IMG/VR virus record: IMGVR_UViG_3300044798_000308 | Span: 1 to 35,276 of that record | Reading direction: 5' to 3' (one strand) | Source: a virus | DNA: 35,276 nt | Shown: piece by piece, positions 1-23,516 of the stretch | How positions within the stretch are numbered: the first letter of the stretch is position 1 | Layout of the letters: each line of letters opens with the position of its first letter | Notes under the pieces: generated by a model | Databases searched by the model: none | What the model was told of the DNA's origin: nothing | Seen by the model: the letters and a program-made list of their open reading frames with translations, nothing else | Made by a program: the position numbers and the translations under genes

Positions 1-212
1 GTGAAATAATGTGTCACCCCGTAGAGCCCGACCGGAGACATGTAGGTCGTTGGAGTCTGGGTTTTTCCGCCCACAGTACACGACCAACCAAGGGTGGTTA
101 CGAGATCGTCATACAGATCATCGATGATGTTCTGAACGTCGGCCACCCCAGCATGAAGCCTGTAGGTAAAATCTGTGTTCAGCGTTCCAGCCAAAAAACT
201 TGGTACTGCCAT
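1..212 (-). CDS. Hypothetical phage structural protein, 3' end cut by window edge
   Basis: An open frame of 70 codons starts with ATG at 212 (MAVPSFLAGTLNTDF...) and runs off the left edge without a stop. Its start overlaps the stop of the upstream fibre gene in a TAATG junction, which suggests translational coupling and supports the start. The visible N-terminus has an acidic stretch (DVQNIIDDLYDDL) and then a TLGWSC segment; no family is recognised. Its place directly after two fibre genes suggests another virion or tail-tip protein. That role is inferred from position only. Confidence 0.7.
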   Translation of the reverse strand, partial: MAVPSFLAGTLNTDFTYRLHAGVADVQNIIDDLYDDLVTTLGWSCTVGGKTQTPTTYMSPVGLYGVTHYF

Positions 213-1519
213 TATGCGTACTCCTTCATGAATCCAGTCACGATCCATTTGTCCAGGACCGCGTTGTAGATCGCACCCATCATGTCCGTTTTACCAGGTC
301 CGGTGCTGAGGGTGGTGTCGGGCATGTTAATCGGGATGCTGAATTTGGTGTCCAACGTTAGAGTTCGGTTGCCCGAAGCATCTTGCGTGAATTCCCAAAT
401 GATGCGCTGGCCATCCACTCCGTTAGTAGGATTTCCGAGTGTTCTGTTCCCAACTAAAGTAACCCTGAAATGGTTACCCAAAGCGGCGTTGGTGGCAATT
501 GTGGCGGCGTCAATCAGATTCGTGACACACGGTAGGACCGCACCAGATGTTGCCTTGATCTTACCTGTGACTTCCAGGCCCGTGGCGTCTATTATCGCGC
601 GTAAGTTACCCCCTCCAGTCCAAAATCGAAGTGATCCCGAAGGGTGCATCGCGCTTAGAGCCAGACCACCGGCTCCACTGGCTTCTATCACTCCCGATGC
701 AGCTATGTACCGTCCACTCGTTACAAAAGTTGTCCCGAGCACGTAGTACCATACGGTGGAGGTCCCACAGCACGTGCTGTACTGCATGAAAGAAGTGTCG
801 TCGGTATTTTCCAGTTTCTGTACGAGAGGGTGTGCTCCACTGACCTGCATCAAGGTATTCGCGGTCAGTGCGTTGGGACCTATGCACAACGTCCCGTCGA
901 AACTGATCTCCCCGGCATTCTCAGTAATGATCGAATCCCCAAGCGTGCTTGTGGTAGCAAACTTAGGAATCTTTCCGATAGTTCCGCTTCCGCCAACTTT
1001 CGAGTTAAATGTGGTCCAGTCTGTTGAAAAAAGGTAACCATCAACAGATCCGGTAGCCTTTGGTATTGAGAGAGTGCGGTTGGCGGAGAGATCTCCGCCG
1101 CCCGACAACGGAGAAGTGGTCGAAATCGTTCTGTTGGCGGGGGCAAATCCAGTATGGGCAGCAGTGGCATAATCTAAATGTGTGAGTAGGGCGTGATCGG
1201 ATATTCCGCCACCTCCACCAGATATTGGAAGAGGGGTCTTCCCTCCCGATTTCAGAAGATCGAGATAAATGTTTCCAGCCTCAACTGATGAGAGATAATT
1301 CTTGGTGACGAAATCGGTTGCCGTCAAATTCTTTTGTAGCGGCCCATCCATAATCGCATTCGCGGTCATCCTGATGGGATTGTAGAACGTGACGGGACCC
1401 TCTTCACCGTGGAGATTCTTCAGAAGATCAAAAATCTGCCTGATGATAAAGTTCAACTTCTCCCATTGCTGAGCATCAGACGATTTTCGATTAAAGTCAA
1501 TCTGATAGAATTCTGACAT
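212..1519 (-). CDS. Putative tail fibre protein (435 aa)
   Basis: The gene starts with ATG at 1519, with GAGGAA about 5 nt upstream, 9 nt after the stop of the giant fibre gene. The N-terminus (about residues 1-60) is helical and may be the virion-attachment part. A glycine run (GGGGG) lies near residue 100. It is followed by a segment with PLSGGGDLSANRTLSIPKA, a pattern very common in phage tail fibres, then low-complexity G/S/T/A-rich beta sequence. The last ~90 residues (RVTLVGNRTLGNP..., GQRIIWEFTQD..., NRTLTLD) resemble a beta-rich tip domain seen at the C-termini of many metagenomic fibre proteins. It probably acts outside the cell as a host-binding or structural fibre. The family is recognised by pattern, not by a specific homologue. 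Confidence 0.75.
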   Translation of the reverse strand: MSEFYQIDFNRKSSDAQQWEKLNFIIRQIFDLLKNLHGEEGPVTFYNPIRMTANAIMDGPLQKNLTATDFVTKNYLSSVEAGNIYLDLLKSGGKTPLPISGGGGGISDHALLTHLDYATAAHTGFAPANRTISTTSPLSGGGDLSANRTLSIPKATGSVDGYLFSTDWTTFNSKVGGSGTIGKIPKFATTSTLGDSIITENAGEISFDGTLCIGPNALTANTLMQVSGAHPLVQKLENTDDTSFMQYSTCCGTSTVWYYVLGTTFVTSGRYIAASGVIEASGAGGLALSAMHPSGSLRFWTGGGNLRAIIDATGLEVTGKIKATSGAVLPCVTNLIDAATIATNAALGNHFRVTLVGNRTLGNPTNGVDGQRIIWEFTQDASGNRTLTLDTKFSIPINMPDTTLSTGPGKTDMMGAIYNAVLDKWIVTGFMKEYA

Positions 1520-1527
1520 TCCATTCC

Positions 1528-4500
1528 TCAGTACGTCTGCGGTGGAGCCATACGCTCTCTGCGATACCCGTCTTCCACGTTGAGATCTTTCAGTTCAATC
1601 TCGCTCTTCTCCCAGAAGATCCCAAAGGCACTCGTTGAATTAAAACTGAGACGGAACAACTTCCCCTTCTTCGCGCTCGGAAGATCAATCTTCCTTTTCG
1701 AGAAGGACGGATCCGGGGTTGGATCCGCGAGGATAACGCCCGAGTGTTTCAGAACATTGTCAATCCAGATCTCAAAGTTTACATCCGCATCAGGATTGGT
1801 CATTGAAATCCACAACCGCCTAAGGATCTTGTAACGATCGTAACTCAAGGTCTGAGTCCAAGTATCGGCCAGTGTCACGTCGGGTGGTAGCTTGTCAATT
1901 ACATAACTGATCGAGTAATTCCTCATGATCTTCGCGCTGAAGGTCACCCTGGCTATTTTCCCGATCGTATCTTTAGCCAGACTGAAGGTAGAAAGTAGTC
2001 GACCGGCGTGGGCGAAGGTAAAGGTCTGAGCGGTTATTACCCCATCAAGCCAGAATGTCATGGTAGCTGGCTGACCACCGGTATCGGCCTGGACCACCAC
2101 TTCTTTCCAGAGTTTCTTGTAGGGCCATTCCTCGATTACCCATGGCATTTCGATGATCGTCTCTTCGATACTGTCTTCGAAATACTTAAAATCATGTTCA
2201 TAAATTGTAAATGGATAAGACGAGGTGGCCGTAAGGCGCATGATCTTCCCTATCGTATCAATCGGCAGAGAAAATACCACACGCGAACGCGCGGAAGTAT
2301 TTAGAGTGTAGGTGTCCGGCAGGGTGTAACCGTCGATCCAGACGGTCACCACAACGTCCTGCCCCCCTGTGTCTGCTTCGATGATCACGTCCCGCAACCG
2401 TTTCTGATTGGCTACGCCCTGATCTGTCCAGGGTGACTCATGTCGATATTCCTGAAAGGGTTCCGGAATAGCCTCTACCCAAGCACGCCAAAATCTCATT
2501 TGGGATCCGGTTTCGGATCGCAAAATGGTCCTCCACAAGATTCCTACAGTGTCCGGTTCGAAGCTGAACGAGTAAACAGTTCTTCCGAAATCAACGATGT
2601 TTGCCGGAATGACGGCAGGACTGATTAAGATAGAATGTTGGTCTATTTGAGCTTCTACTTCGATTCCACCCAACCCAAGATTATTTACTTCTACCAAGAG
2701 CTTCCGAAATCTCTTCCTCTGGTTCGGCGCACCGTTGTCGCTCCACGGAGTTTCGATGATCGTATCTTCGATGGCATCGTCGAACGGGACAAAGGTCTTT
2801 CGGTAGATAGTGAACGGCGTCAAGGCGGTCGCTGTAATCCTGGCGATTTTGCCTTGTGTATCAACCGGCAAAGAGAACACTATTTCCTTGCGAAGGATGT
2901 AGCCCGGAGCTGTCGGGTTGCTGTTTATGGTGTAGGTACCTGGGAGCACGGCTCCGTCCACCCAAACCGAAACCGTAACATCCCGACCAACAGTATCGCA
3001 ATCGACGATTAAATCCCTAAGTCTCTTGTGTCCCACGCCGCTACCGATATCTTCCCAGGGTGACTCATACCTATATTCCTGGAAAGGCTCCTGAATGGCC
3101 TCTACCCAAGCACGCCAGAAGCGCATCTGAGATCCGGTTTCGGATCTTAGAATCGCACGCCACAGAATGCCGACCGTGTCTGGCTCGAAACTGAACAGAT
3201 AGACAGTCCTTCCCGTGTCACCGATACTTGCCGGAATAATGGTAGGACTGACGACGATCGAATGTTGGTCTACTTGGGCCTCGACCGTAATATCTCCGGG
3301 GCCTAAGTTGTTTACCTCAACCATCAACTTCCTGAATCTCTTCCGTTGATTTGGAGCGCCCTCGTCGCTCCACGGAGTTTCGATGATTGTGTCCTCAATA
3401 GCATCATTGAAATGTACGAACTCGTGACCATAGATTGTGAACTTCTGATAAGCCGCCCCAGTGATCCTCGTAATTTTTCCAATGAGATCGACCGGCAGAG
3501 AAAAGACCGTTCTTGTTCTATAGTCGGTGTTGAGCCAGAAAACATCAGGCAACGCAACGCCATCCACCCATGCGGTGATTTCGACGTTTTCACCTTCCGT
3601 GTCGGCCTCAACGACAAGATCGCGTAGGCGCTTCTCGCTGTCCGTGCCATTATTAACCCACGGAGATTCATATCTCCACTCGTGGAAGGGCTCTGGAATA
3701 GCCTCTACCCAAGCACGCCAGAAGCGCATCTGAGATCCAGCGGCTGATCGTAGTACCGCTCTCCACAAAATGCCCACCGTATCCGGATCAAAACTGAAGA
3801 CATATTCGCTGCGTCCGATAGTTGTGATCGTTGCTGGCGTTGTCGCAACGGTTGCGTTGTCTATCTGTACTTCCACGGTGACCGCACCCGGACCGAGATT
3901 ATTTACTTCAACCATTAGTTTTCGAAACCGCTTCTTTTGATTTGGAGCGCCCTCGTCGCTCCACGGAGTTTCGATGATTGTGTCCTCAATAGCATCATTG
4001 AAATGTAGAAATTCATGGTTGTAGATTGTGAACCAATACCCCGAGGTAGCTGTAATGCGGGTGATCTTGCCGACCAAATCTACGGGCAGCGAAAAGACCT
4101 TCTTCATCCTCTCTGCGGTATTAAGCAGAAAGGTATCCGGAAGGTCGAAGCCATCCACCCAGGCCGTTACGGTGACATTGCGGCCTCCCGTGTCTGCCTC
4201 GATAACCAGGTCCCTGAGTCGCTTTTCGTTATCCGTGCCATTGTTTACCCACGGAGATTCAAAGCGCCTTTCCTCGAAGGGTTCCGGAATAGCCTCTACC
4301 CAAGCTCTCCAGAAGCGCATCTGAGACCCAGGAGCTGACGTGAGAACAACCCTCCATAGAATGCCAAGGCTGTCCGGCTCGAAACTAAATACGTGTTCAG
4401 TGCGGCCTAACGTGGTAATGGTTGTAGGAATCGTTGTCATTGTGGCATTGTCAATTTGGGCATCAACCGTGATCGCGCCCGGACCAAGGTTATCAACTTC

Positions 4501-7173
4501 CACGACCAACTTCCGAAATCTCTTTTTCAGGTTGGGTGCACCCTGATCATTCCACGGAGTTTCGACGATTGTGTCCTCGATTGAATCATCGAAATGTACA
4601 AATTCGTGGTTATAGATCGTAAATGGGCGATCGCCGGTGGCCGTGATACGCACAAGTTTTCCGATGGTATCAACCGGCAAAGAGAACACAACGCGCTCTC
4701 TTTTAATTGTGTTTACGGTATACGTGGTTCCCAGCGCGGCCCCATCCACCCACATGGTAACCACCACATCGTCGCCAACGGTATCAGCTTCAACTACAAG
4801 GTCTCTGAGCTTTTTCTCTTGGTTGGTGCCATTGTTTGTCCATGGAGACTCATAACGCCATTCCTGGAACGGTTCCGGAATAGCCTCTACCCAAGCCCTG
4901 TAAAATCTAAACGTTGAACCGGCGTCGTTGGCGGTAACTAAGACGCGCCATATAACACCCACGGTATCAGGCTCAAAGCTAAATACATATTCGCTGCGTC
5001 CCCTCTCCGTAACATTGATTCCAGTAGATACCGTATTGACAGATTTATTGTCTATCTGGACATCTACTGTGAGTCCACTCGGACCTACGTTATCGACCTC
5101 GACCACCATTTTGCGATAACGCTTGCGCATGTTAGGTGCACCCTCGTCACTCCAAGGAGTTTGAACATTCTCAATCTCAGGTGGTTCGGGCATAAACCTA
5201 ATATCATGACTATAAACTTTTATAAGCTTTCCGGGGGCCGGGATAAATTTTAGCCTAATAACTTTTCCACGTATGTCGGGAAGAATGGCCCTATATAACC
5301 GTTGCTTTCCTTCGGCCACGATGTCGTCAAATACCTGTACAACCGACCCGTCAACATGGATCTCGATAGTAACGGCTTTGCCATATGTGTCAACCTCTAC
5401 CCATAATTCGCGTAAAAACTTTGAACCCGGCGTTCCGTAGTCGCTCCATTCGGTGACGTGAGTCTTGTGTGGAATCGGTTCAACAAGGATCCTATGAGAT
5501 ACTTTATATAGTTTCGTAGTCGAAGTTGAACCAATAAAGGTGGTAGATCTGAGTCTTAACTGACACCTGGTAGCGAGTTTGCTTTCTCCCTCACCAAGGA
5601 GAACGGGGAGAATTATTCTTTCTCTGCCCGTAGCCTGAACAAGTCCGATAGGATCATAATCAGCGCTATCGAATGATGCTTCAAGCATTACCGAAACACC
5701 CTGTGTATCAGAATCAACAACGAAATCAACAAATCTCTTTTCTTGATCCGGCATCCCCAGATCGTAATCTTTGGTATCAACAATCCAATCAATCCCAAGG
5801 TTTCCGTACTTCGTATCACACTGATCAAAAAACCCGTTTTCTAACTGCATTGGCCACGGGCCACTATAAGAAAATCCTCCTGGGTCTACAGGCGGGACCG
5901 CAGGAGGGATCACGGGAGGAACTACAGGCGGGATCACGGGAGGAACTACGGGCGGGGAAATCGTGCCAGTAAACGGATAGTCAAAACCAGCTCCACTGTT
6001 ATATAACGCAACCTTTTCATCATCCCCCAACAGCCTATTCCAGTAAGATAGAGAATCGATTGCTCCGAGACCACCGAGGTGGGAGTACAAACCATAGTCC
6101 CACTGGGCCGCGATGGCAGAGTCAACAACGCTTATTGGAGTCCCGTTATTGATACTGGCATAGTAAGTACTCATGGCCGGATCGTACCAATAAAGGAGGA
6201 GGCACCACGTATTAAAGGGAACTTGGAGTAATCCTGGACCTTCAACGAACGAATGGAGGGCCACCTGCAATGTGGCATAGGTATCGCCATCGTCCATGCG
6301 AATCACACCGTTAAGGCTATTTCGAACAACGAGATAGTTGTACGCTGATGCGGGCGGGAGGTTGATCCACATGCCAACAGTAAAACCATCGGACACATCC
6401 GAAATAAGCTCAAGAAGTGGAGTACTAATACATCCAAGGGTGCCTGGGGCCTTGGAAATGGCGTTTCCAAATTTCCCGCTGACAGTTTGCAGATCGTCAG
6501 CACCAACGACAAAATCACACGCTCCGTTTGCGCTAACTAGATGAGATCCATTCGTAACAACCGCATCATCTAATTTCCAATGACCTACAAGTCTGTCCAA
6601 AAGTGTTGCATGCGAAGGTTCAGGGGGCGGGACCACGGATGGGTTGGCCACTGGATCATAATGAGGCTTTAATGACGCAATAATAGTGTTATCTACTACG
6701 CTAGAACCCCAATCATAAGATAATGCAGCCAAGCCATTCCTGTGTAAAAATAAACCAATCTGGGCATTGGTCGGAGGAGTCTGGGTGGGACTCCCAATGG
6801 CCACCCATTCTCGGTTGGCCAGACGAGCATCGATAGTATCACCCTGAACTGCATAGTAGTTATTAGAAAATACTGGTCTTAGAAGCCACAGGGTCCCACT
6901 TAGCAGATCAACCCACGGTACATCATTAACAATGGTTGTGTAGTCGGGATGGAAGGTATTTATGATGGTATCGTCTCTCCAACCACCACTTAGCCCATAA
7001 GTAAGACCTATAAGACCGTACCGTCGCATTACAGAAGTAATCTGTTCTTGTGTGGGCGGGGTCTGCGTGGAACTTCCTAAGGCTACCAGGCCCATACCTG
7101 CCAGATTCTCTGTATGTCCGTTCGGATCAATCCCGTAATAGGTTCCCTGAATGGGTTCAGTTAAAAGCCACAC
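1528..7173 (-). CDS. Giant repeat-containing tail fibre/adhesin with LamG-like domain (1881 aa)
   Basis: The start is GTG at 7173, with GGAGGAATT just upstream. Residues 2-84 and 95-180 are an internal duplication; both halves carry STQTPPT or PTQTPPT and a DxTII motif. Residues about 194-403 form a LamG/concanavalin A-like domain (VGHWKLDD at its start, LSYWNRLLGDDEKVALYNSG at its end). Residues about 405-434 are a rigid PPV/PPVIPP linker. From about 435 to the end I count roughly 14 beta repeats of ~95-105 residues. Two alternating types, one beginning ESPW and one beginning ETPW, share KRxRxLxVExD, an R---FS---D-xGK/GI motif and an aromatic end. No signal peptide or membrane segment is seen. 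The likely role is a long carbohydrate-binding fibre; repeat number may change by recombination. Confidence 0.8.
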   Translation of the reverse strand: MWLLTEPIQGTYYGIDPNGHTENLAGMGLVALGSSTQTPPTQEQITSVMRRYGLIGLTYGLSGGWRDDTIINTFHPDYTTIVNDVPWVDLLSGTLWLLRPVFSNNYYAVQGDTIDARLANREWVAIGSPTQTPPTNAQIGLFLHRNGLAALSYDWGSSVVDNTIIASLKPHYDPVANPSVVPPPEPSHATLLDRLVGHWKLDDAVVTNGSHLVSANGACDFVVGADDLQTVSGKFGNAISKAPGTLGCISTPLLELISDVSDGFTVGMWINLPPASAYNYLVVRNSLNGVIRMDDGDTYATLQVALHSFVEGPGLLQVPFNTWCLLLYWYDPAMSTYYASINNGTPISVVDSAIAAQWDYGLYSHLGGLGAIDSLSYWNRLLGDDEKVALYNSGAGFDYPFTGTISPPVVPPVIPPVVPPVIPPAVPPVDPGGFSYSGPWPMQLENGFFDQCDTKYGNLGIDWIVDTKDYDLGMPDQEKRFVDFVVDSDTQGVSVMLEASFDSADYDPIGLVQATGRERIILPVLLGEGESKLATRCQLRLRSTTFIGSTSTTKLYKVSHRILVEPIPHKTHVTEWSDYGTPGSKFLRELWVEVDTYGKAVTIEIHVDGSVVQVFDDIVAEGKQRLYRAILPDIRGKVIRLKFIPAPGKLIKVYSHDIRFMPEPPEIENVQTPWSDEGAPNMRKRYRKMVVEVDNVGPSGLTVDVQIDNKSVNTVSTGINVTERGRSEYVFSFEPDTVGVIWRVLVTANDAGSTFRFYRAWVEAIPEPFQEWRYESPWTNNGTNQEKKLRDLVVEADTVGDDVVVTMWVDGAALGTTYTVNTIKRERVVFSLPVDTIGKLVRITATGDRPFTIYNHEFVHFDDSIEDTIVETPWNDQGAPNLKKRFRKLVVEVDNLGPGAITVDAQIDNATMTTIPTTITTLGRTEHVFSFEPDSLGILWRVVLTSAPGSQMRFWRAWVEAIPEPFEERRFESPWVNNGTDNEKRLRDLVIEADTGGRNVTVTAWVDGFDLPDTFLLNTAERMKKVFSLPVDLVGKITRITATSGYWFTIYNHEFLHFNDAIEDTIIETPWSDEGAPNQKKRFRKLMVEVNNLGPGAVTVEVQIDNATVATTPATITTIGRSEYVFSFDPDTVGILWRAVLRSAAGSQMRFWRAWVEAIPEPFHEWRYESPWVNNGTDSEKRLRDLVVEADTEGENVEITAWVDGVALPDVFWLNTDYRTRTVFSLPVDLIGKITRITGAAYQKFTIYGHEFVHFNDAIEDTIIETPWSDEGAPNQRKRFRKLMVEVNNLGPGDITVEAQVDQHSIVVSPTIIPASIGDTGRTVYLFSFEPDTVGILWRAILRSETGSQMRFWRAWVEAIQEPFQEYRYESPWEDIGSGVGHKRLRDLIVDCDTVGRDVTVSVWVDGAVLPGTYTINSNPTAPGYILRKEIVFSLPVDTQGKIARITATALTPFTIYRKTFVPFDDAIEDTIIETPWSDNGAPNQRKRFRKLLVEVNNLGLGGIEVEAQIDQHSILISPAVIPANIVDFGRTVYSFSFEPDTVGILWRTILRSETGSQMRFWRAWVEAIPEPFQEYRHESPWTDQGVANQKRLRDVIIEADTGGQDVVVTVWIDGYTLPDTYTLNTSARSRVVFSLPIDTIGKIMRLTATSSYPFTIYEHDFKYFEDSIEETIIEMPWVIEEWPYKKLWKEVVVQADTGGQPATMTFWLDGVITAQTFTFAHAGRLLSTFSLAKDTIGKIARVTFSAKIMRNYSISYVIDKLPPDVTLADTWTQTLSYDRYKILRRLWISMTNPDADVNFEIWIDNVLKHSGVILADPTPDPSFSKRKIDLPSAKKGKLFRLSFNSTSAFGIFWEKSEIELKDLNVEDGYRRERMAPPQTY
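3346..3416 (-). repeat. 71-nt perfect direct repeat, copy 1
   Basis: By direct comparison this segment is identical to 3937-4007. It encodes the junction between an ESPW-type domain and the following ETPW-type domain of the giant fibre. The spacing of 591 nt is one repeat unit, so homologous recombination between the two would remove or add exactly 197 residues in frame. Confidence 0.9.
3937..4007 (-). repeat. 71-nt perfect direct repeat, copy 2
   Basis: This is the second copy of the segment at 3346-3416. The flanking bases differ on both sides (G versus T before it, C versus G after it), so the exact identity ends here although looser similarity continues. Confidence 0.9.
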
Positions 7174-7188
7174 AATTCCTCCGGCTAA

Positions 7189-9603
7189 CTACGATATGGT
7201 TAACGTTCCGCCAAGCAAAATATTGTTTTGGGGTTCTGTGTAATAAAAATAAGCCCCGTAGAGATAATAATGCCATCGTTCATAAAGTGTATCCCAAATC
7301 AAAGTTCGATTGTTCTTGATGGCTGCATTCAGAGTGTTGGGATAAGAAAAGTACACCTTGCTATCCCAAAACCCCATGCAACATTCCGCTTCTCGGCCAA
7401 CAGCCACCGGATCGATTTCGTTCAGCCTCTGGTCGAAAAACACTTGATTAATAGGTTCCGATATCTTCCTTCCAGCAGGAAATTCATAAATCCCATCGTA
7501 TGCATGCATATACAAAGAACGAAGCCCGCGCACGATTCCGAACCTACTCTTGAGTCCCTGATTAACGGGAGTAGCAATCGCCCGATAAACCCCACTACTA
7601 CCAATTATATTATAAACCCGAGTAAGAGTAAAAACAAACAATTGGCCGTCGTTTTCCACAATGCGCTGTATCTGTTCCGATCCCGTACCAACATACAAAT
7701 AGTTAGCGGTTGGGAAATGCTCAACGCGCACGGCCTTTGAGAACCTTATCCTATTCGGGGGTTCGGGAACAGTTTCGCCATCATCGGTCGTATAGTATCC
7801 GCCCCAGGTCCACAGACGATCATCGTACAATTCGATTCCTGTTACAGCGGCCATCGGCAACTGGTTGTCTATTTCAAGGACTTGCCCCAACAACGAGTCC
7901 GGTTGGTCATCGACAACCACCGGAATGCTACCTGCCACATATGGGATATCAATATCCAACAGTTGGAACTGAGACACGGTTCCACCCATACGATAGACGC
8001 GCACTTTGTCGGGGATGGATTCGGGTGGAGTCGTAACCGGTAACCGAGGTAGAGTTAGTGTGTATGAATCGTGTTGAGCACCGGGCGCGGGAACCGCAGC
8101 AACTGGAGAATAATCGCTCTCAGTGTTTGTCTTGGAATTGTAAAAAGTATAGACCCATTGATAATCCCAACCCTCCAGATTCCCGGTCGTCAACCTCTGG
8201 CAAAAATCAAATTCAACATTGCAAGTCTTGCCACCCGTTGCAGACGCAATGGTTTTTATATCAATACGAATAGCGGTAACATAGGCCCAACTAAGATCCG
8301 GCCTGGTCAGGACATCAGTTCCTATTCTTTTAAACTCATCCTCCGTAACTCTCTGCCTTATCCACACTCCGCTGCTTGGGGGAAGAACTACTGTATCTCC
8401 CGTACTATCACGAGGGTCGCCAAAGGTTGGATTACTAGCATCCCATCCTAAACCATATCTATCGGCGAGTAATTGCCGGAGATATATAGGATCCAAGGAC
8501 TGCAGATCATCCGGATAACCTAAATCAATTCCGAAATTACGTAAATCATTCAATAGTCCGTATCCCTGGTTTCTACCATACACGACTTTACCAAATATAA
8601 TGTCGTAAGCAAATTCCTGTTCTGCTGTATAGTCGGTAGTTCTTCCGGTAGACCCACCTGCAGTTGACCCCTGAAACGCAGACGGCACCCAGGTTTTTTG
8701 CATCGAGGTTTGAAATGTAGCATCTCCTAAAATATGAGACAGACAAAAATCGATGGTGATCTGCTGGCAATTTAAGGCCGATTCAGCATCAACAAACTTC
8801 ATCCAAATCTCAATCGTACTGGTTCCGTCAATACCAAGGTTTGCTATGATGGGATACCCACCGGAGGTAATAGATTTGTATGCGCTACCAACAATTTCGT
8901 CTCCCGGTGTTACCGCCATTTCCATTGCGTATCCAGTGGAAGCTCCATCGCATTTTGTCGTATTTGTCAAAATACAATTGGTTGGTGTCCATTGGTCTTT
9001 ATCGTCAAAATCCTCGATATCCTCTGTTGTGTTTTGATCCCTGGCTACCAAAGTAGGAGAACTGGTAGGTTTTGGGATACCAATTCTTCGAGCTGAATTA
9101 TTTCCGCCAGCATGTTTTAGAAACTTCGTACCATCCGTAAAGAAAACGTATGGTTTAATCTCCGAGCCAATCAGGGTGTAAGTTGAAAATAGGGCTCGCG
9201 GATCATTTTCAGGAGATAATTTATCCCCACCGTCTACCGGCAAAAAATAGTTTTTAGATGCAAGGGGCCAGATAAGACTGTCGTTCGGTTCAATTACCGG
9301 AGCACAATATAACTTTCCGTACCTGGTAGTTCTTCCACGAGAATCTGTCGCCACAACTGAACAGATAGCATATCGCCATTGAATACCATTGACATCCTTT
9401 AAATAGTACAAAGAGTGTGGAGACGAAGGCAGTCCATCGTTTAGTCTGGTAAATCCCTTACGAACAGAAATAGAATTCTCCCTGTCCGTAATAACATTCA
9501 TCAGGGCCTTGTACGCAGTAATAGGAAGCTCGTCGGGCGCACTTTTTATAACGATTCCGGTATTCGCAAATGTGATCGGTATCGATTTAATTTCTTGTGG
9601 CAT
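7189..9603 (-). CDS. Tail nozzle / tail tubular-like virion protein (804 aa)
   Basis: ATG at 9603, 3 nt after the stop of an adaptor-like gene. The N-terminus (FANTGIVIKSAPDELP, then ALMNVITDRENSISVRKGF) matches a pattern I know from large neck or nozzle proteins that begin with a statement of offsets and then a beta-propeller-like body. Blade-like segments include QIQRIVENDGQLFVFT followed by LTRVYNIIG, and FGIVRGLRSLYMHAYDGIYEFP, which recall T7 gp12 and P22 gp10 type tails. The order adaptor, adaptor, nozzle, fibres agrees. No membrane segment is seen. The protein probably closes the short tail under the portal and carries fibres. The call rests on pattern and context; an unrelated baseplate hub protein is less likely. 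Confidence 0.65.
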   Translation of the reverse strand: MPQEIKSIPITFANTGIVIKSAPDELPITAYKALMNVITDRENSISVRKGFTRLNDGLPSSPHSLYYLKDVNGIQWRYAICSVVATDSRGRTTRYGKLYCAPVIEPNDSLIWPLASKNYFLPVDGGDKLSPENDPRALFSTYTLIGSEIKPYVFFTDGTKFLKHAGGNNSARRIGIPKPTSSPTLVARDQNTTEDIEDFDDKDQWTPTNCILTNTTKCDGASTGYAMEMAVTPGDEIVGSAYKSITSGGYPIIANLGIDGTSTIEIWMKFVDAESALNCQQITIDFCLSHILGDATFQTSMQKTWVPSAFQGSTAGGSTGRTTDYTAEQEFAYDIIFGKVVYGRNQGYGLLNDLRNFGIDLGYPDDLQSLDPIYLRQLLADRYGLGWDASNPTFGDPRDSTGDTVVLPPSSGVWIRQRVTEDEFKRIGTDVLTRPDLSWAYVTAIRIDIKTIASATGGKTCNVEFDFCQRLTTGNLEGWDYQWVYTFYNSKTNTESDYSPVAAVPAPGAQHDSYTLTLPRLPVTTPPESIPDKVRVYRMGGTVSQFQLLDIDIPYVAGSIPVVVDDQPDSLLGQVLEIDNQLPMAAVTGIELYDDRLWTWGGYYTTDDGETVPEPPNRIRFSKAVRVEHFPTANYLYVGTGSEQIQRIVENDGQLFVFTLTRVYNIIGSSGVYRAIATPVNQGLKSRFGIVRGLRSLYMHAYDGIYEFPAGRKISEPINQVFFDQRLNEIDPVAVGREAECCMGFWDSKVYFSYPNTLNAAIKNNRTLIWDTLYERWHYYLYGAYFYYTEPQNNILLGGTLTIS

Positions 9604-9605
9604 AT

Positions 9606-10382
9606 CTATCTTCCGGGTACCATGTTAGTTTCTGTTCCCATCGTCAACCGTTTAGCCAATGACACACCCATCAAATATCGCTGGTGTGCGTAATTACTAC
9701 GCGCGAGGTCTTGGTTGTCCCCATCTTTGCCCAAAGCCAACGACAATACCTCCCAACGAATAAACGGTTCCCAGACAAAATCCACCGATGTCGTCGTCGT
9801 GTTCGATTCCGAAACAAAGAATGGCAGAGGCGCAATCCGATCCGTGTCGCCATAGTGAAGCGGCTCCCTCGGAAACATCCGCGCGGGGCTGGGTAACGGT
9901 AACGTCCTGCCGCCGGTTACAACGGTAATCACTGTAACTGAAGTATGCGGAGGAGGCAGAAGATCCCCAATAATTCTGTAGCTTCCGCCTTGAGCCGGAA
10001 CCCGATCAAACTCAAACTCCAAAACCGATGCGAGGTGATCTTCGTGGTAATAGCGTGTCTTACCATTTGGCGTGGAACGCCACTTGGGATTTTCTCGTTG
10101 TAGGTCCCATGATGTTACGCGCCTTAATCGTTTTAGGTTGAATGAGATGCGGTCAATGTCCATCATGTTCGTTGGCTTAGTAAAAATGATCTGGGTGCCT
10201 GGCGCTACCGTAGTCGTCACGTCTACCTTTACAATACCCGTCTGACGATAAAAATCTCTTTCCGCATGTTCAATATATCCCAGCATTTCGTCAACAGTCC
10301 ACAGTCCGGACGGGAATGTATTGTCCTCCTCATGAAGGTCCAGTGCGATTCTCGTCAAGAAATCACCAATCGTGATACCCAT
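9606..10382 (-). CDS. Head-tail adaptor-like protein with shared GRTLP...APLPF motif (258 aa)
   Basis: I place the start at ATG 10382 (MGITIGDFLTRIALDLHEED), 6 nt after the stop of the preceding adaptor; the frame is open upstream, but that extension lies inside the preceding gene. The helical N-terminal part (WTVDEMLGYIEHAERDFYRQTG) resembles the DUF6682-like connector family, as does the neighbour at 10388-11074. A proline-rich motif at about residues 180-216 (GGRTLPLPSPARMFPREPL, then YGDTDRIAPLPF) recurs in the small protein at 11471-11791. The C-terminus is helical again (ALGKDGDNQDLARSNYAHQR). The likely role is in the neck between portal and nozzle. The SD is weak, so translation may be coupled to the gene upstream. 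Confidence 0.65.
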   Translation of the reverse strand: MGITIGDFLTRIALDLHEEDNTFPSGLWTVDEMLGYIEHAERDFYRQTGIVKVDVTTTVAPGTQIIFTKPTNMMDIDRISFNLKRLRRVTSWDLQRENPKWRSTPNGKTRYYHEDHLASVLEFEFDRVPAQGGSYRIIGDLLPPPHTSVTVITVVTGGRTLPLPSPARMFPREPLHYGDTDRIAPLPFFVSESNTTTTSVDFVWEPFIRWEVLSLALGKDGDNQDLARSNYAHQRYLMGVSLAKRLTMGTETNMVPGR

Positions 10383-10387
10383 TTCGG

Positions 10388-11074
10388 TTATCGCGCCGCC
10401 ACAGGTTTCGGCGCTCCCTCCCTCAACGAAGTTTCCGACAGTTTGCTCTCTCGGATATCCCAAGACGGCAAACTTCTAATTACATTTCTACCGGACAATT
10501 CCTGCACAGCTTCTATGAAACGAGTGTAATAAATCAGCGCCTGCTGAAATTCAGCTCCGCCTTCCTTGAACATCGCTCTTGACACAATAAAATCCTCCAC
10601 GGCCCTTTCGTATTCCGGACGGACGGGCAGGTTGAGAGCCACGTCTCCGATAGGATCATGAAATTCCAAAATCTCAACATAGAGGGTCACGCTCACTAGT
10701 GGACGTGGATAAATAAGGATTTTATTTAGACCAACCGGACTCCAAGAACGAGGCCATAGCCTGATTGCGTTGGAGGCTTCCCAGTCTGCCTCATTGTCGA
10801 TGTCGTTTACCTGTTGGCGAAGAAGATACCCGTGCGTTGTCCTGACCGACAAAGGCGCTACCGTTCCTGCAGGAAGGTCGTAAATATTGTGGGTGCTGTC
10901 GGCAATAATCTCAATAGTATCCTGGTTATCGGCTGCGATCAGATTTAATTCAAACAGGGCGTCGTTCAGGAACACAAGCAGTTCGGGACGGGTCCATCGA
11001 ATCGGAGCCGCCGTATTGTTCATTTCGTTCAGGCGTCTGATTGCCTGATCTATAAGCTCGCTTGCAGTAGCCAT
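10388..11074 (-). CDS. Head-tail adaptor/connector protein, DUF6682-like (228 aa)
   Basis: The start is ATG at 11074, with AGGGG 5 nt upstream; a GTG two codons earlier is less well placed. The N-terminus reads ASELIDQAIRRLNEMNNTAA, then RWTRPELLVFLNDALFELN. This is the helical signature of phage adaptor proteins that sit under the portal (R-W-x-x-x-E-L-L--LNDA). The middle is beta-rich with YDLPAGTVAPLSVR. The C-terminal helices (RPEYERAVEDFIVSRAMFKE, then EFQQALIYYTRFIEAV) also match this family. It forms a run with the next adaptor and the nozzle. The family assignment is from memory of the pattern, so the DUF number is tentative; the adaptor role is fairly secure. Confidence 0.7.
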   Translation of the reverse strand: MATASELIDQAIRRLNEMNNTAAPIRWTRPELLVFLNDALFELNLIAADNQDTIEIIADSTHNIYDLPAGTVAPLSVRTTHGYLLRQQVNDIDNEADWEASNAIRLWPRSWSPVGLNKILIYPRPLVSVTLYVEILEFHDPIGDVALNLPVRPEYERAVEDFIVSRAMFKEGGAEFQQALIYYTRFIEAVQELSGRNVIRSLPSWDIRESKLSETSLREGAPKPVAAR

Positions 11075-11106
11075 CTTCACCCCTAAGTCGGATCACCGTA
11101 GCCATC

Positions 11107-11460
11107 TCATGTTGTCAGGGTTACATCTGGCATAACTACCAGGCTTCCCGATGCCACCGTATAAATCATACCGTTAGCATCCTTAATCTGAACATCCCAT
11201 AGCAACAACGTCTTAACGGGTGGGAGATCCTCAGTATCGGATGCTGTCAAAGCCAATGAGCCTCTTCCGGCAAGGGCGTTTGTCACGGTAATTCCATCCC
11301 CGATCGTCTTCTGAAAGACAGCGACCGAGTCTTCATCTTTGTAGGCATATTTTCCCGTGAACCAGATCTCGCACCCAGTTAAGGAAAAGGCCACCGCTGA
11401 TTTGGTAACCAGCATGTTGAACACCACTGTGTCACCGCGATACATTTGCAAGTCTGCCAC
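11107..11460 (-). CDS. BppU N-terminal-like beta-domain virion protein (117 aa)
   Basis: The start is GTG at 11460 (GTG GCA GAC), with AGGAGGT about 7 nt upstream; no ATG fits as well. The protein is one beta domain: YRGDTVVFNMLV, LTGCEIWFTGKYAYKD, GITVTNALAGRGSLALTASD, LLLWDVQIKDANGMIYTVAS and a final MPDVTLT. This order matches the immunoglobulin-like N-terminal domain of phage baseplate upper proteins (BppU/DUF2479 type), in which a D-T pair, a WFTxK strand and a terminal DVT recur. It is a whole gene here and not part of a longer fibre. It probably serves as an attachment or accessory unit at the neck or tail. Confidence 0.6.
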   Translation of the reverse strand: MADLQMYRGDTVVFNMLVTKSAVAFSLTGCEIWFTGKYAYKDEDSVAVFQKTIGDGITVTNALAGRGSLALTASDTEDLPPVKTLLLWDVQIKDANGMIYTVASGSLVVMPDVTLTT

Positions 11461-11470
11461 AGCCTACCTC

Positions 11471-11791
11471 CTATATTGCCTCACAGGTTATCGTCGCAAT
11501 TGGTCCCGGATCCAATATTAGAATAGCTATAGGCGGACACACATTGCCCCCGCCTCCACTTCCGCTTCCGCCCACGACGGTCACACAGGAACCATCATCA
11601 TCCGGATTAATTACGCTAACCTTACTTTGCAGAATCTGTTTGATCGTGAATATGGATTCAACAACAATGGTCTGAACAGCGCCGACCTGGAATGGTAAGG
11701 GCGCAATCCGATCCGTATCGCCATACTCCAATGGCTCGATTGGGTAGATGCGATCCGGATTGGGAATCGGAAGAGTTCGACCTCGTGCCAT
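11471..11791 (-). CDS. Small protein carrying the adaptor-type GRTLP...APLPF motif (106 aa)
   Basis: ATG at 11791 overlaps the stop of the upstream gene in a TGATG junction, with GAGGT a few nt before it; a TTG 15 nt upstream is a poorer choice. Residues 3-36 (RGRTLPIPNPDRIYPIEPL, YGDTDRIAPLPFQV) closely match residues about 180-216 of the adaptor at 9606-10382, with similarity at DNA level too. After this come a short beta or helical stretch, a glycine/serine linker (SGSGGGG) and a hydrophobic C-terminus (IAILILDPG). No known family is recognised. The layout suggests a short tag that docks where the adaptor's motif docks, or one that competes with it. That is inference. Confidence 0.6.
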   Translation of the reverse strand: MARGRTLPIPNPDRIYPIEPLEYGDTDRIAPLPFQVGAVQTIVVESIFTIKQILQSKVSVINPDDDGSCVTVVGGSGSGGGGNVCPPIAILILDPGPIATITCEAI

Positions 11792-14043
11792 CAATACCTC
11801 GCGCAAATTCCTTTAATAACCTGAAATTCTTCCAAAGTCGCGTAGGATCCAGTCCCAGAGCTATGCTGGTAATAGATCGGAAATGGCCGGATCCCAAACA
11901 TGTGAACTCCTCCGCATCTCCTAACAATCGCAGTTTGAGTGATGGTGTTCCACCCGCCGCCAGCGATTTGGTATTCCGCCACATTGAAGGTAGTGAGTTT
12001 TTCGGCGGAGTCCGACTTAATGTGCAATCGCAATTCCACGTCGAACGGATTCGTGGGAACGCTTACGTTGGGAATCGTCACTAGGGCATCTGTACTAATT
12101 GACGGTGGTGTCGTGGTTTCGGACTGAGGAGTGGTTACCGCCAACCCAATCTCCAGATCGCTCAGGGTTGGAGTTGTAGCCCTCTTTTCACGAAGAACCA
12201 AGCCAACGAGGGCGCAGTCGTATCCGTAATATTGCAGGCCCTGACCCGGAAGTTGTAAAAATAATCCAACTCCACCGGCATTCGCAGTCAACGCTGGCCC
12301 CCTGGTTAGGGAAACCGACCATTTTGTGCGAATCTGAATCTCTCCCTCTAGCCTCGAAGGGAAAATCCTAAATCGACCAGCAGGACCGGCGTAACCAATC
12401 TCATTGATAAGGGCGCTGGTTATAGCTGCCCCGGTAATGGTTCCGTCTGCCTCCATGGTCAAAGTTACGCCTTGCCCTTGGAGCGTTGGGATCCACCAGT
12501 TCCGATCGCTGAACTGAGTCCAGGTGTAATCGCCCTCGATGTAATCCGAAGCATTCCCCATGAGGTCGGTGCTGTGGATAATTCCCCCGTCCGATCTCGA
12601 AAACCGGTTTTCGAACCAGACGCGGCATTCCACATTAGCTACCGAACTCGGAACCTGCACGGCTCCGGTGGTGAAGGAACGATCCGTGAAGTTCGCATAG
12701 ATCCAGTTGTTGCCAGGAGTGTTCTCATTCCACAAGCCGTAGCCTGGAGTGGCCCCAAGATAACCTTCGGTAGTCCACGCCCAGGGTGGCTTCACGATTT
12801 TGATGCGAACTCTATCGTACACTGAGCCCGTCATATGAGCTGTCGATTGAAACCGATCCCAAGCCTCGATAGTCAACGTGGTGCCTACTGCTTCAATCCC
12901 TACCCAAGTACAATAGTTAACATCGAAATTGGTATCGCCCCTCACATCGATGAGAACCAAATCCCCAACGGTGGCGGTCCCCCATCCTGCCCCCCCATTG
13001 GATATTTCCCCGGTCGCAGGATCATAACTGTGGTTTGATCCGGACCCGTCGTAATAGGTTTCCGCTGCTCCCGTATTTTCGTCCAACGCCCTCCATGCTC
13101 CAGTAGACGCATCCTTGAACTGCGCCCAGAAGAACAGGATGCAACCGCCCTTGGTTCTCGGCCTTGAGGCTGAAGCTATGTAGGTATTGGCTATGGATCC
13201 AGGTTGTACTGTAACTTCCCAATCGTCAGGAGGTCCAGTATCCGTCAGCGTGGATGTATCGGCGTATTGATAAACCAGGCTCGGCGTGAGATTGCCATCA
13301 GTCCAGTTCGACCACCCATAGGTGTTTTTCAAGCGCCACGCAAAATACCAACGGCCCTGAGCGCCAGATGTGAATCGACAGGTAGATCCATTTCGCGCCG
13401 CTCGCAGGCCGGTGATAATGAGTTGGGTCGTTCCATTGTGAGCGAACGAGCCGCCTTCCGCCGCAGTCCTTAGATCCACGTAGGCAGGCAGAACAGTAGT
13501 GGGATCGACGTACATCGCCCTAAACTCGCCCTCGGAGAGACTGGCGTTATTGTAATTAGCGACACAATCGGAGAGGCCGAACAGGCCATTGAAGAGCAAC
13601 TTCGCCACCAATCCATCGGGTTTATTCGCGGATACAGCCGCACAGGTGGTTACGGCATAAGTAATCACAACATCATAGGTATGTGCGCCACTGTCGTTGT
13701 TTTTGATTTGTAGATGCAGATGAAGGCCCACGTCTGAATCTTCGTATCGACAAATGAAGGACTCGCTTCGTCCATAATAATTTGCTCCACGTTCTTCAAC
13801 TGGATCATAGAAAGGTTCTGCGGTATCTCCTGGCCACGGAGCGGTCGCATAGACTAGATTCCCCGCCGAAGCGGTCACGGATTTGTGGATGAAGAATTCC
13901 GCAGTTCCACCACTGCTGTTCGGCGTGATTTTGATCTGGAAAATATCGATAGCGTTATCCGGCATGTCGCGGTCGATGCCCAGTGTCACACCGGGTCCTA
14001 CCGAAGCTGTGGTAAAGGAATCCTGAGTAAATCTCGATGTCAT
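11791..14043 (-). CDS. Large surface/fibre protein, paralogue 3 of 3 (750 aa)
   Basis: ATG at 14043, 3 nt after the stop of paralogue 2. The N-terminus (FTQDSFTTASVGPGVTLGID) matches those of the two upstream paralogues. Shared landmarks in order: DGLVAKLLFNGL, EFRAMY, EGGSFAHNGTT, GRWYFAWRLKN-YGWSNWTDG, RPRTKGG, QFKDASTGAWRAL, LVLIDVRG, YCTW, PPWAWTTEGYLG, ARVWFEN-like ECRVWFENRFSRSDG, and a C-terminal YATLEEFQVIKG. The protein is all-beta, has no signal peptide or membrane segment, and looks fibronectin-like around the WTDG segment. It was probably produced by tandem duplication and serves as a tail or head fibre. Its precise substrate is unknown. Confidence 0.7.
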   Translation of the reverse strand: MTSRFTQDSFTTASVGPGVTLGIDRDMPDNAIDIFQIKITPNSSGGTAEFFIHKSVTASAGNLVYATAPWPGDTAEPFYDPVEERGANYYGRSESFICRYEDSDVGLHLHLQIKNNDSGAHTYDVVITYAVTTCAAVSANKPDGLVAKLLFNGLFGLSDCVANYNNASLSEGEFRAMYVDPTTVLPAYVDLRTAAEGGSFAHNGTTQLIITGLRAARNGSTCRFTSGAQGRWYFAWRLKNTYGWSNWTDGNLTPSLVYQYADTSTLTDTGPPDDWEVTVQPGSIANTYIASASRPRTKGGCILFFWAQFKDASTGAWRALDENTGAAETYYDGSGSNHSYDPATGEISNGGAGWGTATVGDLVLIDVRGDTNFDVNYCTWVGIEAVGTTLTIEAWDRFQSTAHMTGSVYDRVRIKIVKPPWAWTTEGYLGATPGYGLWNENTPGNNWIYANFTDRSFTTGAVQVPSSVANVECRVWFENRFSRSDGGIIHSTDLMGNASDYIEGDYTWTQFSDRNWWIPTLQGQGVTLTMEADGTITGAAITSALINEIGYAGPAGRFRIFPSRLEGEIQIRTKWSVSLTRGPALTANAGGVGLFLQLPGQGLQYYGYDCALVGLVLREKRATTPTLSDLEIGLAVTTPQSETTTPPSISTDALVTIPNVSVPTNPFDVELRLHIKSDSAEKLTTFNVAEYQIAGGGWNTITQTAIVRRCGGVHMFGIRPFPIYYQHSSGTGSYATLEEFQVIKGICARY

Positions 14044-14046
14044 GGC

Positions 14047-16368
14047 CTAGTATACCTCGGCTAACCCGTTAATAAGTTCCACTTTGGTAAGACAAACTTC
14101 CGTGTCTTGCAGGACGCAATTTGCCACGACGCCTACAAACAGTTCCAATCCCCCGACCTGTGCTGAAAACCCATCCCTTTGCCATACCGGAGTAACAGGC
14201 ATGACGTGGCCCGGACTTCCAAATGTCACCCCTTGGATATCCACAGCATACATAGCAAATGGTGGCATACTTGCGGGAGCTTTTTGGAAAGCCCACTGGC
14301 CCTGTACCGTGATGGCATCTCCGTAATCGGGAGCGATCACATTGTTGTAACTCACGGAATCTGGGAAGTAGATATTAGTAAGCGCTGCCACATTCGCGCG
14401 ATGGTAAATATAGACTCCGTTGACGCACATCCAATTAGGAGTATGGGTGTCGGGTCCAAGAGCAGTAAGTGCAGCTCCCATGGTCGGAGTTTGCCAACCC
14501 GCGCTTGGGCCAGAACAAAAAATGCCAACGGACAGGCGATCCAGGGCTCCGATCGGATGGATCGTCACCGAAGAAAAGGTGGCCCTAACGGTTAGAAGTC
14601 CAGCCGCATCGGGATAGAGTCTGAATCGGGCCTTAACCCCCATGGCAGAAAAATACGAACTGACGGTGCTCCCTACCGACTGCATCACGCACTGACGATC
14701 TAAGCCGCCAGGTGCCAGCGGGAAGGTCACCAGTCCCCAATCAGCCTGCGGATAAACGGGGATCCAATACTTGGTATCGGCCATGTTGTTCCAAGTTCTC
14801 GGCGCTTGGATCACACCGATCCCTCCAGATTTTCCGGTGCTATGGGTACAATTGTTGTCCGATCGTGAATAGGTATTTTCAAAGAAGACTCGGGCCTCCG
14901 GATTGGTGATCGTCACCGGAATGGCTATTGGGTCGGAAACAAATTCCAACGTTGACTTGTCATAGATTTGGGGACTGTTGAATGCTCCGCCTCCGGGATA
15001 CCAGAAATTGTGCCGATTATTTTCTCCGACGTTCCACCAGCCACGATTGGGATATGTCGTACTTCCCAAATATCCATTGGCCGTCCACGCCCACGGGGGC
15101 GTTACAATCTTGATCCTTAAATCGGTGAACTGTTGTGGTCGCACGGAACTGGAAGGAAGGGCGAAGGACTGTCCGTTCACCGTGAAATTGTTTCCCATCC
15201 AGAAAGGCTGTAGGGTTAGCGTTAATCCGGATACCGTTTTGACGAGCGCCCACTGGCAATAGGAGATCCCGAAAGCTCCGCCGCGCACATCGATCAGAAC
15301 CAGATCATTTACTTGAGCGACCCCATAGGTTCCGGACGCTTTAGAGACGGTCACCCCATCCGGTGAGAGGGTGTGCGCGATTGCGGATCCATCATAATTT
15401 AGGGTTCCGGGAGCCGAGGCGGTATCCACCGCCACCCAAGCTCCCGTGCTGGCATCTTTGATCTGCACCGACCAATAGAGGACAGTGCCGCCGTTGGTCC
15501 TTGGCCGTGTGGCGCGTACCACCACGGTCCCGATTGATGGGCCGTCCTCGAACGTCACTTCCCAATCTGCCGGTGGGCCTGTGTCGGATGTCGTTGCCGA
15601 CTCGGTATCCACATATTGCTTTGTGTTGACCGGGACAAGATTGCCGTCTGTCCATCGTGACCACCCGCCCTGATTATGCAACCTCCATGCGTAATACCAG
15701 CGTCCCGCTCCCGCAGAGGTGAACGAATAATTGGCCCCGCCTGCATCCGCTGTGATGTTTTGGATTTGCAGATCGGTGGTTCCATTGGGGACGAATGTAC
15801 CCCCTTCAGACACCAGGGAAAGGTCCACATACTCTTGGCCAACGGACGCAAAATACTTCGCCCGGAACTCACCGAGATCGATTCCCTCGTTATACCTGGA
15901 TGCGGTCACAACAAAGAGAAGGTTCAAGCCGTTGGCTATGGCTCTGGCAACTAACCCGTCCGGAGAACCCGGCATAGCCGCTACGGTGGTCGGCATGGAC
16001 TCATATTCAATTGTGACGGCGTAGGTTTTGGCTACACTGTGATTGTTTTTGAAGGTGAAGTGCAACAGTTGGGTTCCATCGTCGTCGTTATAGGGAATGA
16101 TCCATCCCTCATTCACTTCTGCACCAGTGGAGTCAACGGGATCCACGGAGGCTGCTCCGGTAAATGCTTTGGTGGACCAAATTATGTCCGCCGCGCCGCG
16201 TGCCGCCTTCTTGTAGAGTATGACCTGATCGGTTCCAGCATTGATCGAAGGCACAACTTTGATCTTGGCAATATCGATCGAATCGAGAGGGATCGCTAGA
16301 TCATGAGCGAGAGATCCCCCCGCCGAAACAGACGCGGTGGTGAAAGTTGCAGTTGTGAATCGGGCCAT
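14047..16368 (-). CDS. Large surface/fibre protein, paralogue 2 of 3 (773 aa)
   Basis: ATG at 16368, with AGGT about 9 nt upstream. It shares with its neighbours the N-terminal domain (MARFTTATFTTASVSAGGSL), SPDGLVARAIANGL, EFRAKY, SEGGTFVPNGTT, GRWYYAWRLHNQGGWSRWTDG, RPRTNGG, VQIKDASTGAWVAVD, LVLIDVRGG, YCQWALV, PPWAWTANGYLG and ARVFFENTYSRSDNN. The C-terminal ~250 residues fit the paralogues less well, and it lacks their FATLKEFEVIKG/YATLEEFQVIKG ending, closing instead with DTEVCLTKVELINGLAEVY. A conserved front with a diverged end is expected for receptor-binding proteins. No catalytic motif is visible. Confidence 0.7.
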   Translation of the reverse strand: MARFTTATFTTASVSAGGSLAHDLAIPLDSIDIAKIKVVPSINAGTDQVILYKKAARGAADIIWSTKAFTGAASVDPVDSTGAEVNEGWIIPYNDDDGTQLLHFTFKNNHSVAKTYAVTIEYESMPTTVAAMPGSPDGLVARAIANGLNLLFVVTASRYNEGIDLGEFRAKYFASVGQEYVDLSLVSEGGTFVPNGTTDLQIQNITADAGGANYSFTSAGAGRWYYAWRLHNQGGWSRWTDGNLVPVNTKQYVDTESATTSDTGPPADWEVTFEDGPSIGTVVVRATRPRTNGGTVLYWSVQIKDASTGAWVAVDTASAPGTLNYDGSAIAHTLSPDGVTVSKASGTYGVAQVNDLVLIDVRGGAFGISYCQWALVKTVSGLTLTLQPFWMGNNFTVNGQSFALPSSSVRPQQFTDLRIKIVTPPWAWTANGYLGSTTYPNRGWWNVGENNRHNFWYPGGGAFNSPQIYDKSTLEFVSDPIAIPVTITNPEARVFFENTYSRSDNNCTHSTGKSGGIGVIQAPRTWNNMADTKYWIPVYPQADWGLVTFPLAPGGLDRQCVMQSVGSTVSSYFSAMGVKARFRLYPDAAGLLTVRATFSSVTIHPIGALDRLSVGIFCSGPSAGWQTPTMGAALTALGPDTHTPNWMCVNGVYIYHRANVAALTNIYFPDSVSYNNVIAPDYGDAITVQGQWAFQKAPASMPPFAMYAVDIQGVTFGSPGHVMPVTPVWQRDGFSAQVGGLELFVGVVANCVLQDTEVCLTKVELINGLAEVY

Positions 16369-16374
16369 AATCCA

Positions 16375-18669: not shown

Positions 18670-18675
18670 GGTTAC

Positions 18676-19062
18676 CTAGCACCGAGCCATCTGGATTTTG
18701 AAGGTGAAGTTGAGAATTCCTCCGATCGCCAATACTGATCCTGGAGTTATAACCTCCCGAAGTAGCATGTTCCCACCAGAGACAGCATCAAAAAGACCCC
18801 ATTCCGTAATCGTCAGCACCGCCAACGCGGTAATCGATCCACTTACCTGGTAGGTGTCTCCCGCCTGAGTAATCGTAACAATCGTAGATACACCGGGTGA
18901 GCGTGCATATCCGCCAGTGGTATCCTCGGTGGCCAACTGGGTATTGGTTGCGACTGGAGCTGCTATCCCAGTTCCCCAGCCGATGTAAAGAGGTTCGGTG
19001 CCGACGCCTTTGATTCGGCTGGCCAAGATGCTGAGTCCTTTATTGGTTATAATTTTGGCCAT
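18676..19062 (-). CDS. Small tail-fibre-type virion protein (128 aa)
   Basis: ATG at 19062, with AGGGGG 4-5 nt upstream. The pattern is IITNKGLSILASRIKG, EPLYIGWGTG, TTGGYARSPGV, VTITQAGDTYQVSGSITA, TITEWGLFDAVSGGNMLLRE and FTFKIQMARC. It is familiar from many short phage tail proteins in which I-x-N-x-G-L---A opens the protein, a GxGTG loop follows, and ITExGLFDAxSGGxML-R lies near the end. These are related to the N-terminal parts of tail-collar and H-type fibres. It lies immediately upstream of the three large fibre paralogues and may be a collar or fibre-base component. No enzyme motif is present. Confidence 0.65.
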   Translation of the reverse strand: MAKIITNKGLSILASRIKGVGTEPLYIGWGTGIAAPVATNTQLATEDTTGGYARSPGVSTIVTITQAGDTYQVSGSITALAVLTITEWGLFDAVSGGNMLLREVITPGSVLAIGGILNFTFKIQMARC

Positions 19063-19070
19063 GGATCCCC

Positions 19071-19373: not shown

Positions 19374-19381
19374 ACCGCCTC

Positions 19382-19690: not shown

Positions 19691-19700
19691 CTCTGCCTCC

Positions 19701-20604: not shown

Positions 20605-20606
20605 GC

Positions 20607-22086: not shown

Positions 22087-22096
22087 TGGGTCCCCC

Positions 22097-22669: not shown

Positions 22670-22683
22670 TGTTTAGTCCTCCC

Positions 22684-23244: not shown

Positions 23245-23258
23245 AAAGCCTCCTTTGG

Positions 23259-23507: not shown

Positions 23508-23516
23508 ATCATCCTC

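Follow-up and report, generated by a model that had tools for sequence, protein, structure and literature searches.

A 1881-aa phage open reading frame that probably derives, by detachment and lengthening, from the C-terminal half of a tail-nozzle-type protein

Podovirus tail nozzles of the T7 gp12, SU10 gp17 and P22 gp10 type have a seven-bladed beta-propeller body and a platform beta-sandwich built from the N- and C-terminal parts of the chain. The nozzle of the Kuravirus SU10, a short-tailed phage with an adaptor followed by a nozzle, carries in addition a chain of Ig-like domains. Its platform binds the adaptor, and on attachment the chain of four Ig-like domains, which is inserted between propeller blades 2 and 3, straightens and makes the tail longer by 277 A (PMC9509320). 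In a more general kind of protein, length changes in frame by whole repeated domains. The locus described here resembles SU10 gp17 in its order of adaptor and nozzle-type gene and would also combine a nozzle body, a putative platform beta-sandwich and a chain of domains, but the chain lies C-terminal to the platform-like domain, reaches 12-14 domains, differs in number among relatives and is a separate gene in one phage. Compared with repeat-varying proteins in general, the unit here is a two-domain block, and its copies are old and diverged.

The window, the whole 35,276-nucleotide stretch of virus DNA that was analysed, contains a real open frame of 1881 aa on the minus strand, a strand that the preliminary description had left unsaid. 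That description had seen alternating ESPW and ETPW repeats preceded by a proline linker, and both are present. After an N-terminal part of ~430 aa, the domain order is N, N1, five A-B pairs, C1 and C2, where A denotes the ETPW type and B the ESPW type, and the flanking N1, C1 and C2 are related to them. The protein thus has 14 domains of ~100 aa each, N being larger. The features of the locus are the following:

7189-9603, minus strand: 804-aa nozzle-type protein, the N-terminal partner in the fused relatives (phrog_3287, E 3e-8), its TAG stop being in frame with the 1881-aa ORF.
7171-7191, minus strand: split point, TAG TTA GCC GGA GGA ATT GTG, with an in-frame stop, a GGAGGA Shine-Dalgarno sequence and a GTG start.
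1528-7173, minus strand: 1881-aa ORF, starting with GTG at 7173; open frame confirmed.
6658-7173, minus strand: cassette, first part, two copies of a ~80-aa repeat (V/LWLL...TQTPPT...) at residues 1-80 and about 93-172; no relatives found in the searches given below.
5959-6633, minus strand: cassette, second part, possible LamG/ConA-like domain at residues ~181-405; Laminin_G_3 match below threshold.
5883-5958, minus strand: proline linker (PPVVPPVIPPVVPPVIPPAVPPV) joining cassette to array, with a 24-nt tandem repeat at 5901-5956.
5455-5868, minus strand: N domain, residues 436-573, kept in 7/7 phages by alignment; resembles the platform domain of T7-type nozzles.
5164-5454, minus strand: N1 domain, residues 574-670, kept in 7/7 phages; modelled as a jelly roll, CBM6-like.
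2155-5163, minus strand: array of five A-B pairs, residues 671-1673.
A units, minus strand: A1 5163-4855, A2 4566-4264, A3 3975-3673, A4 3384-3070, A5 2757-2443.
B units, minus strand: B1 4854-4567, B2 4263-3976, B3 3672-3385, B4 3069-2758, B5 2442-2155.
1870-2154, minus strand: C1 domain, residues 1674-1768, kept in 7/7 phages and 93% identical to that of relative L001.
1531-1869, minus strand: C2 domain, residues 1769-1881, a C-terminus kept in 7/7 phages.
212-1519, minus strand: next gene, fibre-like, 435 aa (phrog_4757 and phrog_19976), with a homologue following the nozzle/array gene in every relative.

A Pfam match of the whole protein to Peptidase_M91 (E 4.9e-7) was rejected as an artefact, since it sums weak matches over many repeats and no single stretch passes.

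A tblastn search of the whole protein against 50,697 phage records gave no match, and the fused form had no relatives among contigs of 84,980 bacterial and archaeal species. Searching IMG/VR returned six relatives (L001, L002, L023, L024, L025 and L026), and in 6/6 one uninterrupted frame encodes the array region together with a homologue of the 804-aa protein encoded upstream in the window. The whole fused protein of L001 has 2038 aa and four A-B pairs; those of the other five relatives have 1140-1255 aa and N-N1-C1-C2 only. Over the seven phages the number of A-B pairs is thus 0, 0, 0, 0, 0, 4 and 5 (the window having 5), which corresponds to 1, 5 or 6 two-domain blocks. The repeat number is therefore not fixed among close relatives, and the earlier proposal that length changes by whole repeats without a frameshift agrees with these counts. 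Gene order is also kept in the relatives: two adaptor-like genes, then the nozzle/array gene, then the gene of the 435-aa type. On a tree of the nozzle part, the window and L001 are sisters (support 100/100), so that the A-B array is most simply derived in their lineage; an A-B profile search of viral contigs found no array carrier beyond L001. A tRNA search of three loci found none.

Based on these comparisons, the 1881-aa ORF most likely belongs to a nozzle-type protein, although the nozzle identity itself, read from sequence and gene context, is uncertain. The 804-aa gene follows directly after two adaptor-like genes (SU10_adaptor PF24175, E 3e-10; phrog_399) and precedes the fibre-like 435-aa gene, as it does in the relatives. 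It matches phrog_3287, a 'virion structural protein' (E 3e-8), and a second family matched in the group is phrog_511, an 'internal virion protein'; each family is found in 4/7 members, and neither is named 'nozzle'. Two described proteins, the 'phage stabilization protein' of Podoviridae sp. ct1fd225 (MW202744) and the 'internal virion protein' of Pseudoalteromonas phage PH1, align over the central ~160 columns in a pairwise profile test (96.9%, E 1.6e-10), but they have 606-647 aa and are without the array. A test of the last ~90 residues of these proteins for homology to the repeat unit gave no clear signal.

Structural comparison may point to the same class of protein. The model of the N domain aligns with the platform region of six nozzle entries (T7, Kp9, cyanophage A4 and P-SCSP1u) over 112-118 residues with VIA-align Z scores of 7.8-8.4, where Z 7-8 is the usual best score without a clear match and a value of about 8 may reflect no more than a widespread fold arrangement; the matched chain ranges span the N- to the C-terminus, as expected for a platform domain. 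Unlike the proteins studied here, the matched entries have no C-terminal array after the platform and no profile sequence similarity to them. Profile searches of the PDB found no relative by sequence, SU10 gp17 included. The N1 model resembles CBM6/galactose-binding-like jelly rolls (best Z 8.7, to be read against the same usual best of 7-8), and a search of a viral structure library gave low TM-scores only. Modelling of the fused protein gave a poor result (pLDDT 38), and the model of residues 1-869 is usable only past about residue 480, with an uninformative LamG-like stretch. Whole-model Foldseek matches in the PDB (reelin, Cry toxins) were discarded as meaningless at a TM of about 0.1.

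We consider it probable that the 1881-aa ORF represents a C-terminal half that has come loose from a short-tailed-phage protein of the tail-nozzle type: it would have been lengthened by duplication of the N1-C1 block and, in the window, split off together with a cassette. The ancestral single chain would have run from nozzle body to platform-like N domain, N1, C1 and C2. On the branch leading to the window and L001, repeated duplication of the N1-C1 block would have given N-N1-(A-B)n-C1-C2, with n = 4 in L001 and 5 in the window, in length steps of whole two-domain blocks produced by recombination at short conserved junctions. Later, and in the window only, a cassette of ~430 aa would have been inserted where the nozzle body joins the platform-like domain. 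The platform-like N domain would continue to dock, now in trans, on the nozzle or adaptor. By analogy with SU10, the chain of beta domains may form an arm projecting from the tail. Trimeric tail fibres are homotrimers whose receptor-binding domain is C-terminal and distal; here, since the relatives carry the array fused to the nozzle-type protein, each nozzle subunit would be expected to bear one chain, in which case there would be up to six copies, and the reach of the arm would be set by the number of A-B pairs. Judging from the polarity of the fused relatives, the cassette would lie at the virion-proximal base and C2 at the tip.

A further-reaching version of this reading we hold only tentatively. 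It describes a split tail nozzle in which the 804-aa body and the platform domain are separate proteins that have to come together again, and leakage through the TAG may produce a mixture; the second protein would bear an arm of 12-14 domains and the cassette, with a reach set by the number of duplicated blocks. The seven phages form a natural series in which the same core carries 0, 0, 0, 0, 0, 4 or 5 extra domain pairs, and tail-arm length would thus change by whole domains. This series makes the question of appendage length against host surface thickness directly testable. The window itself is one case of a fused tail gene turned into two genes by an insertion at a domain joint, and suggests one route from a nozzle protein to a stand-alone fibre-like gene.

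The preliminary description had instead taken the protein for a fibre with a LamG-like head, built by unequal crossing-over, in which gain or loss of repeats would tune the reach. Spelled out, this is a stand-alone tail fibre with a receptor-binding head, whose nearly identical repeats are often gained and lost. No relevant paper turned up when the literature was searched for phage tail fibres that vary in repeat number through unequal crossing-over. The periodicity reported in the preliminary description, 594-627 nt in multiples of three, was reproduced almost exactly: the A-to-A and B-to-B periods are 591-627 nt and in every case a multiple of 3. The near-identity of the central pairs was not. 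The units A3/A4 and B2/B3 share 74% of amino acids and 69-71% of nucleotides, with an identity at third codon positions of 44-49%. Amino acid identity is 57-85% among the A units and 54-74% among the B units, and the pairs of same-type units that were measured are 56-75% identical in nucleotides and 29-52% at third codon positions. Tandem Repeats Finder (longest period 500) reported only the 24-nt repeat of the proline linker within the ORF. Synonymous codons match at a rate of about 0.44 when orthologues from the window and L001 are compared, and of 0.37-0.55 for paralogues; because this is so low, with synonymous sites largely saturated, most copies are old.

Most units are also closer to their positional counterpart in L001 (71-90% amino acid identity) than to their neighbours in the same protein. 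Matched by position, the identities are 79% for A1, 77% for B1, 80% for A2, 82% for B2, 90% for A3 and 71% for B3, and B5 of the window corresponds to B4 of L001 (83%). This positional match leaves no rapid unequal crossing-over visible and argues against frequent turnover. The extra pair in the window perhaps did not arise by plain tandem copying. Both A4 and A5 group as sisters with the A4 of L001 and are 84% identical in amino acids (support 99/91), while B4 (2758-3069), which sits between these two most similar A units, is an orphan with an insertion and only 54-64% identity to all other B units.

Recombination between copies has nonetheless left traces. The longest exact DNA tract within the window, 71 nt, is shared by the B2/A3 and B3/A4 junctions and covers 23 whole codons. 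A tract of this length occurred in 0/5000 simulations; as these take codons as independent and several pairs were tested, P values near 0.01 carry little weight, but the 71-nt tract is far outside the null. Other exact tracts within a genome measure 38 nt (A3/A4) and 29 nt in the window and 36 nt (B1/B3) in L001, compared with a longest exact tract of 20 nt between the window and L001. The 71-, 38- and 29-nt tracts of the window are located at or near unit junctions. Because such tracts exceed expectation between copies of the same genome, we conclude that the copies recombine, mostly over short tracts near conserved junctions. Net gain or loss of units, as judged by comparing the two arrays, appears to be rare enough for positions to remain recognisable. 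Of the proposed construction by unequal crossing-over, the exchange between copies therefore stands, and rapid turnover is not visible.

Variation of the repeat number among relatives and the exact tracts as signs of recombination would suit a stand-alone fibre. Nevertheless we regard this reading as improbable, since the copies are diverged (54-85% in amino acids) with largely saturated synonymous sites, most units match L001 by position, in 6/6 relatives the array forms the C-terminal portion of a nozzle-type protein, and the LamG match is below its cut-off and on the proximal side. This match, to Laminin_G_3 at residues 261-385, has E 0.069 and 13.7 bits against a Pfam cut-off of 27.6, and the term 'head' is probably wrong, the cassette being basal if the polarity of the fused relatives applies.

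Turning to the alternation itself, the most likely origin of the array is a copying of N1 and C1 together as one two-domain block, with A derived from N1 and B from C1. In profile comparisons (hhalign), A is nearest to N1 (98%, E 1.3e-13) and B to C1 (99%, E 1.4e-18), and the match between A and B is lower (97%, 8e-11). Duplication of such a block accounts both for the alternation of two types and for the position of the array between N1 and C1. The unit tree groups A with N1 and leaves B with C1 on the other side, with weak support (86/77); neither A and B as one clade (p-AU 0.167) nor A with C1 (0.079) is rejected, so that the N1-C1 origin is drawn mainly from the profile scores. The long branches of A and B and the single clade allowed by the tree would be compatible with an array that came in as a whole from some other protein instead of being duplicated in place. 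Such an acquisition is unlikely, given that the profiles place A and B nearest to N1 and C1, that the array lies exactly between these two domains and that the A-B profile search matched L001 only.

Regarding the split that we propose for the nozzle-type protein, the 804-aa frame ends in ATA TCG TAG TTA GCC GGA GGA ATT GTG TGG, where five codons separate the stop from a start in frame with it. The last residues of the nozzle align to L001 (GGTLTIS in the window, GGTIVSS in L001) and the alignment picks up again with the N domain at residue 436, which places the cassette exactly at the inter-domain linker. As the front edge of the cassette carries a stop codon, a ribosome-binding site and a new start codon, the arm would be made as a separate protein. 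The cassette of ~430 aa, with two ~80-aa repeats, a possible LamG/ConA domain and the proline linker, is present at the nozzle/array joint in the window only among the seven phages. Its relatives were sought in phages, viral contigs and the relatives' own records and none were found, and neither codon use nor flanking direct repeats gave a signal of foreign origin.

Partial readthrough of the TAG, which would yield both the 804-aa nozzle and a nozzle-cassette-arm fusion and hence a tail mixing armed and unarmed subunits, is very unlikely: the two ORFs do share a frame with only five codons from the stop to the GTG, and the relatives make the fused form, but the same frame is expected by chance in 1/3 of cases or from descent of a fused gene, GGAGGA precedes the GTG at a distance also used by other genes of this phage, and TAG is a normal stop here. 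An alternative genetic code or a suppressed TAG as the main reading is unneeded, since TAA (14), TAG (12) and TGA (7) all end genes among the 33 listed ORFs.

Both the split and the cassette are known from the window alone, and the TAG or the cassette may be a sequencing or assembly error. The contig L003 (IMGVR_UViG_3300044799_000328) is 99.98% identical to window positions 7937-19603, the only part it covers, and ends inside the nozzle gene just upstream of cassette and array; this end is possibly an assembly break caused by variation at the cassette or array.

Paralogous genes are also found elsewhere in the window. Three adjacent structural-type genes (11791-14043, 14047-16368 and 16375-18669; ~750-773 aa) have 28-38% mutual identity and are kept in relatives, and two adjacent genes of 100 and 125 aa (19071-19373 and 19382-19759) are 39% identical. 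Beside the major capsid gene, at 21838-24086, small paralogues alternate, two of 82 aa (52% identical) and three of ~190 aa (40-51%), and are perhaps capsid decoration proteins. Part of one gene seems to have been copied into another: a stretch of ~64 aa in the adaptor-like gene at 9606-10463 is 47% identical to the small gene at 11471-11806 (RTLP..P.R..P.EPL.YGDTDRIAPLPF). A glycosyltransferase-like gene (19951-20631; phrog_12406) lies among the structural genes and is kept in L006, L023 and L026. Finally, three relatives have related genes of ~208 aa downstream of the tail genes (L023:14522-15148, L025:12307-12939 and L026:16416-17036), which by eye resemble GNAT acetyltransferases.
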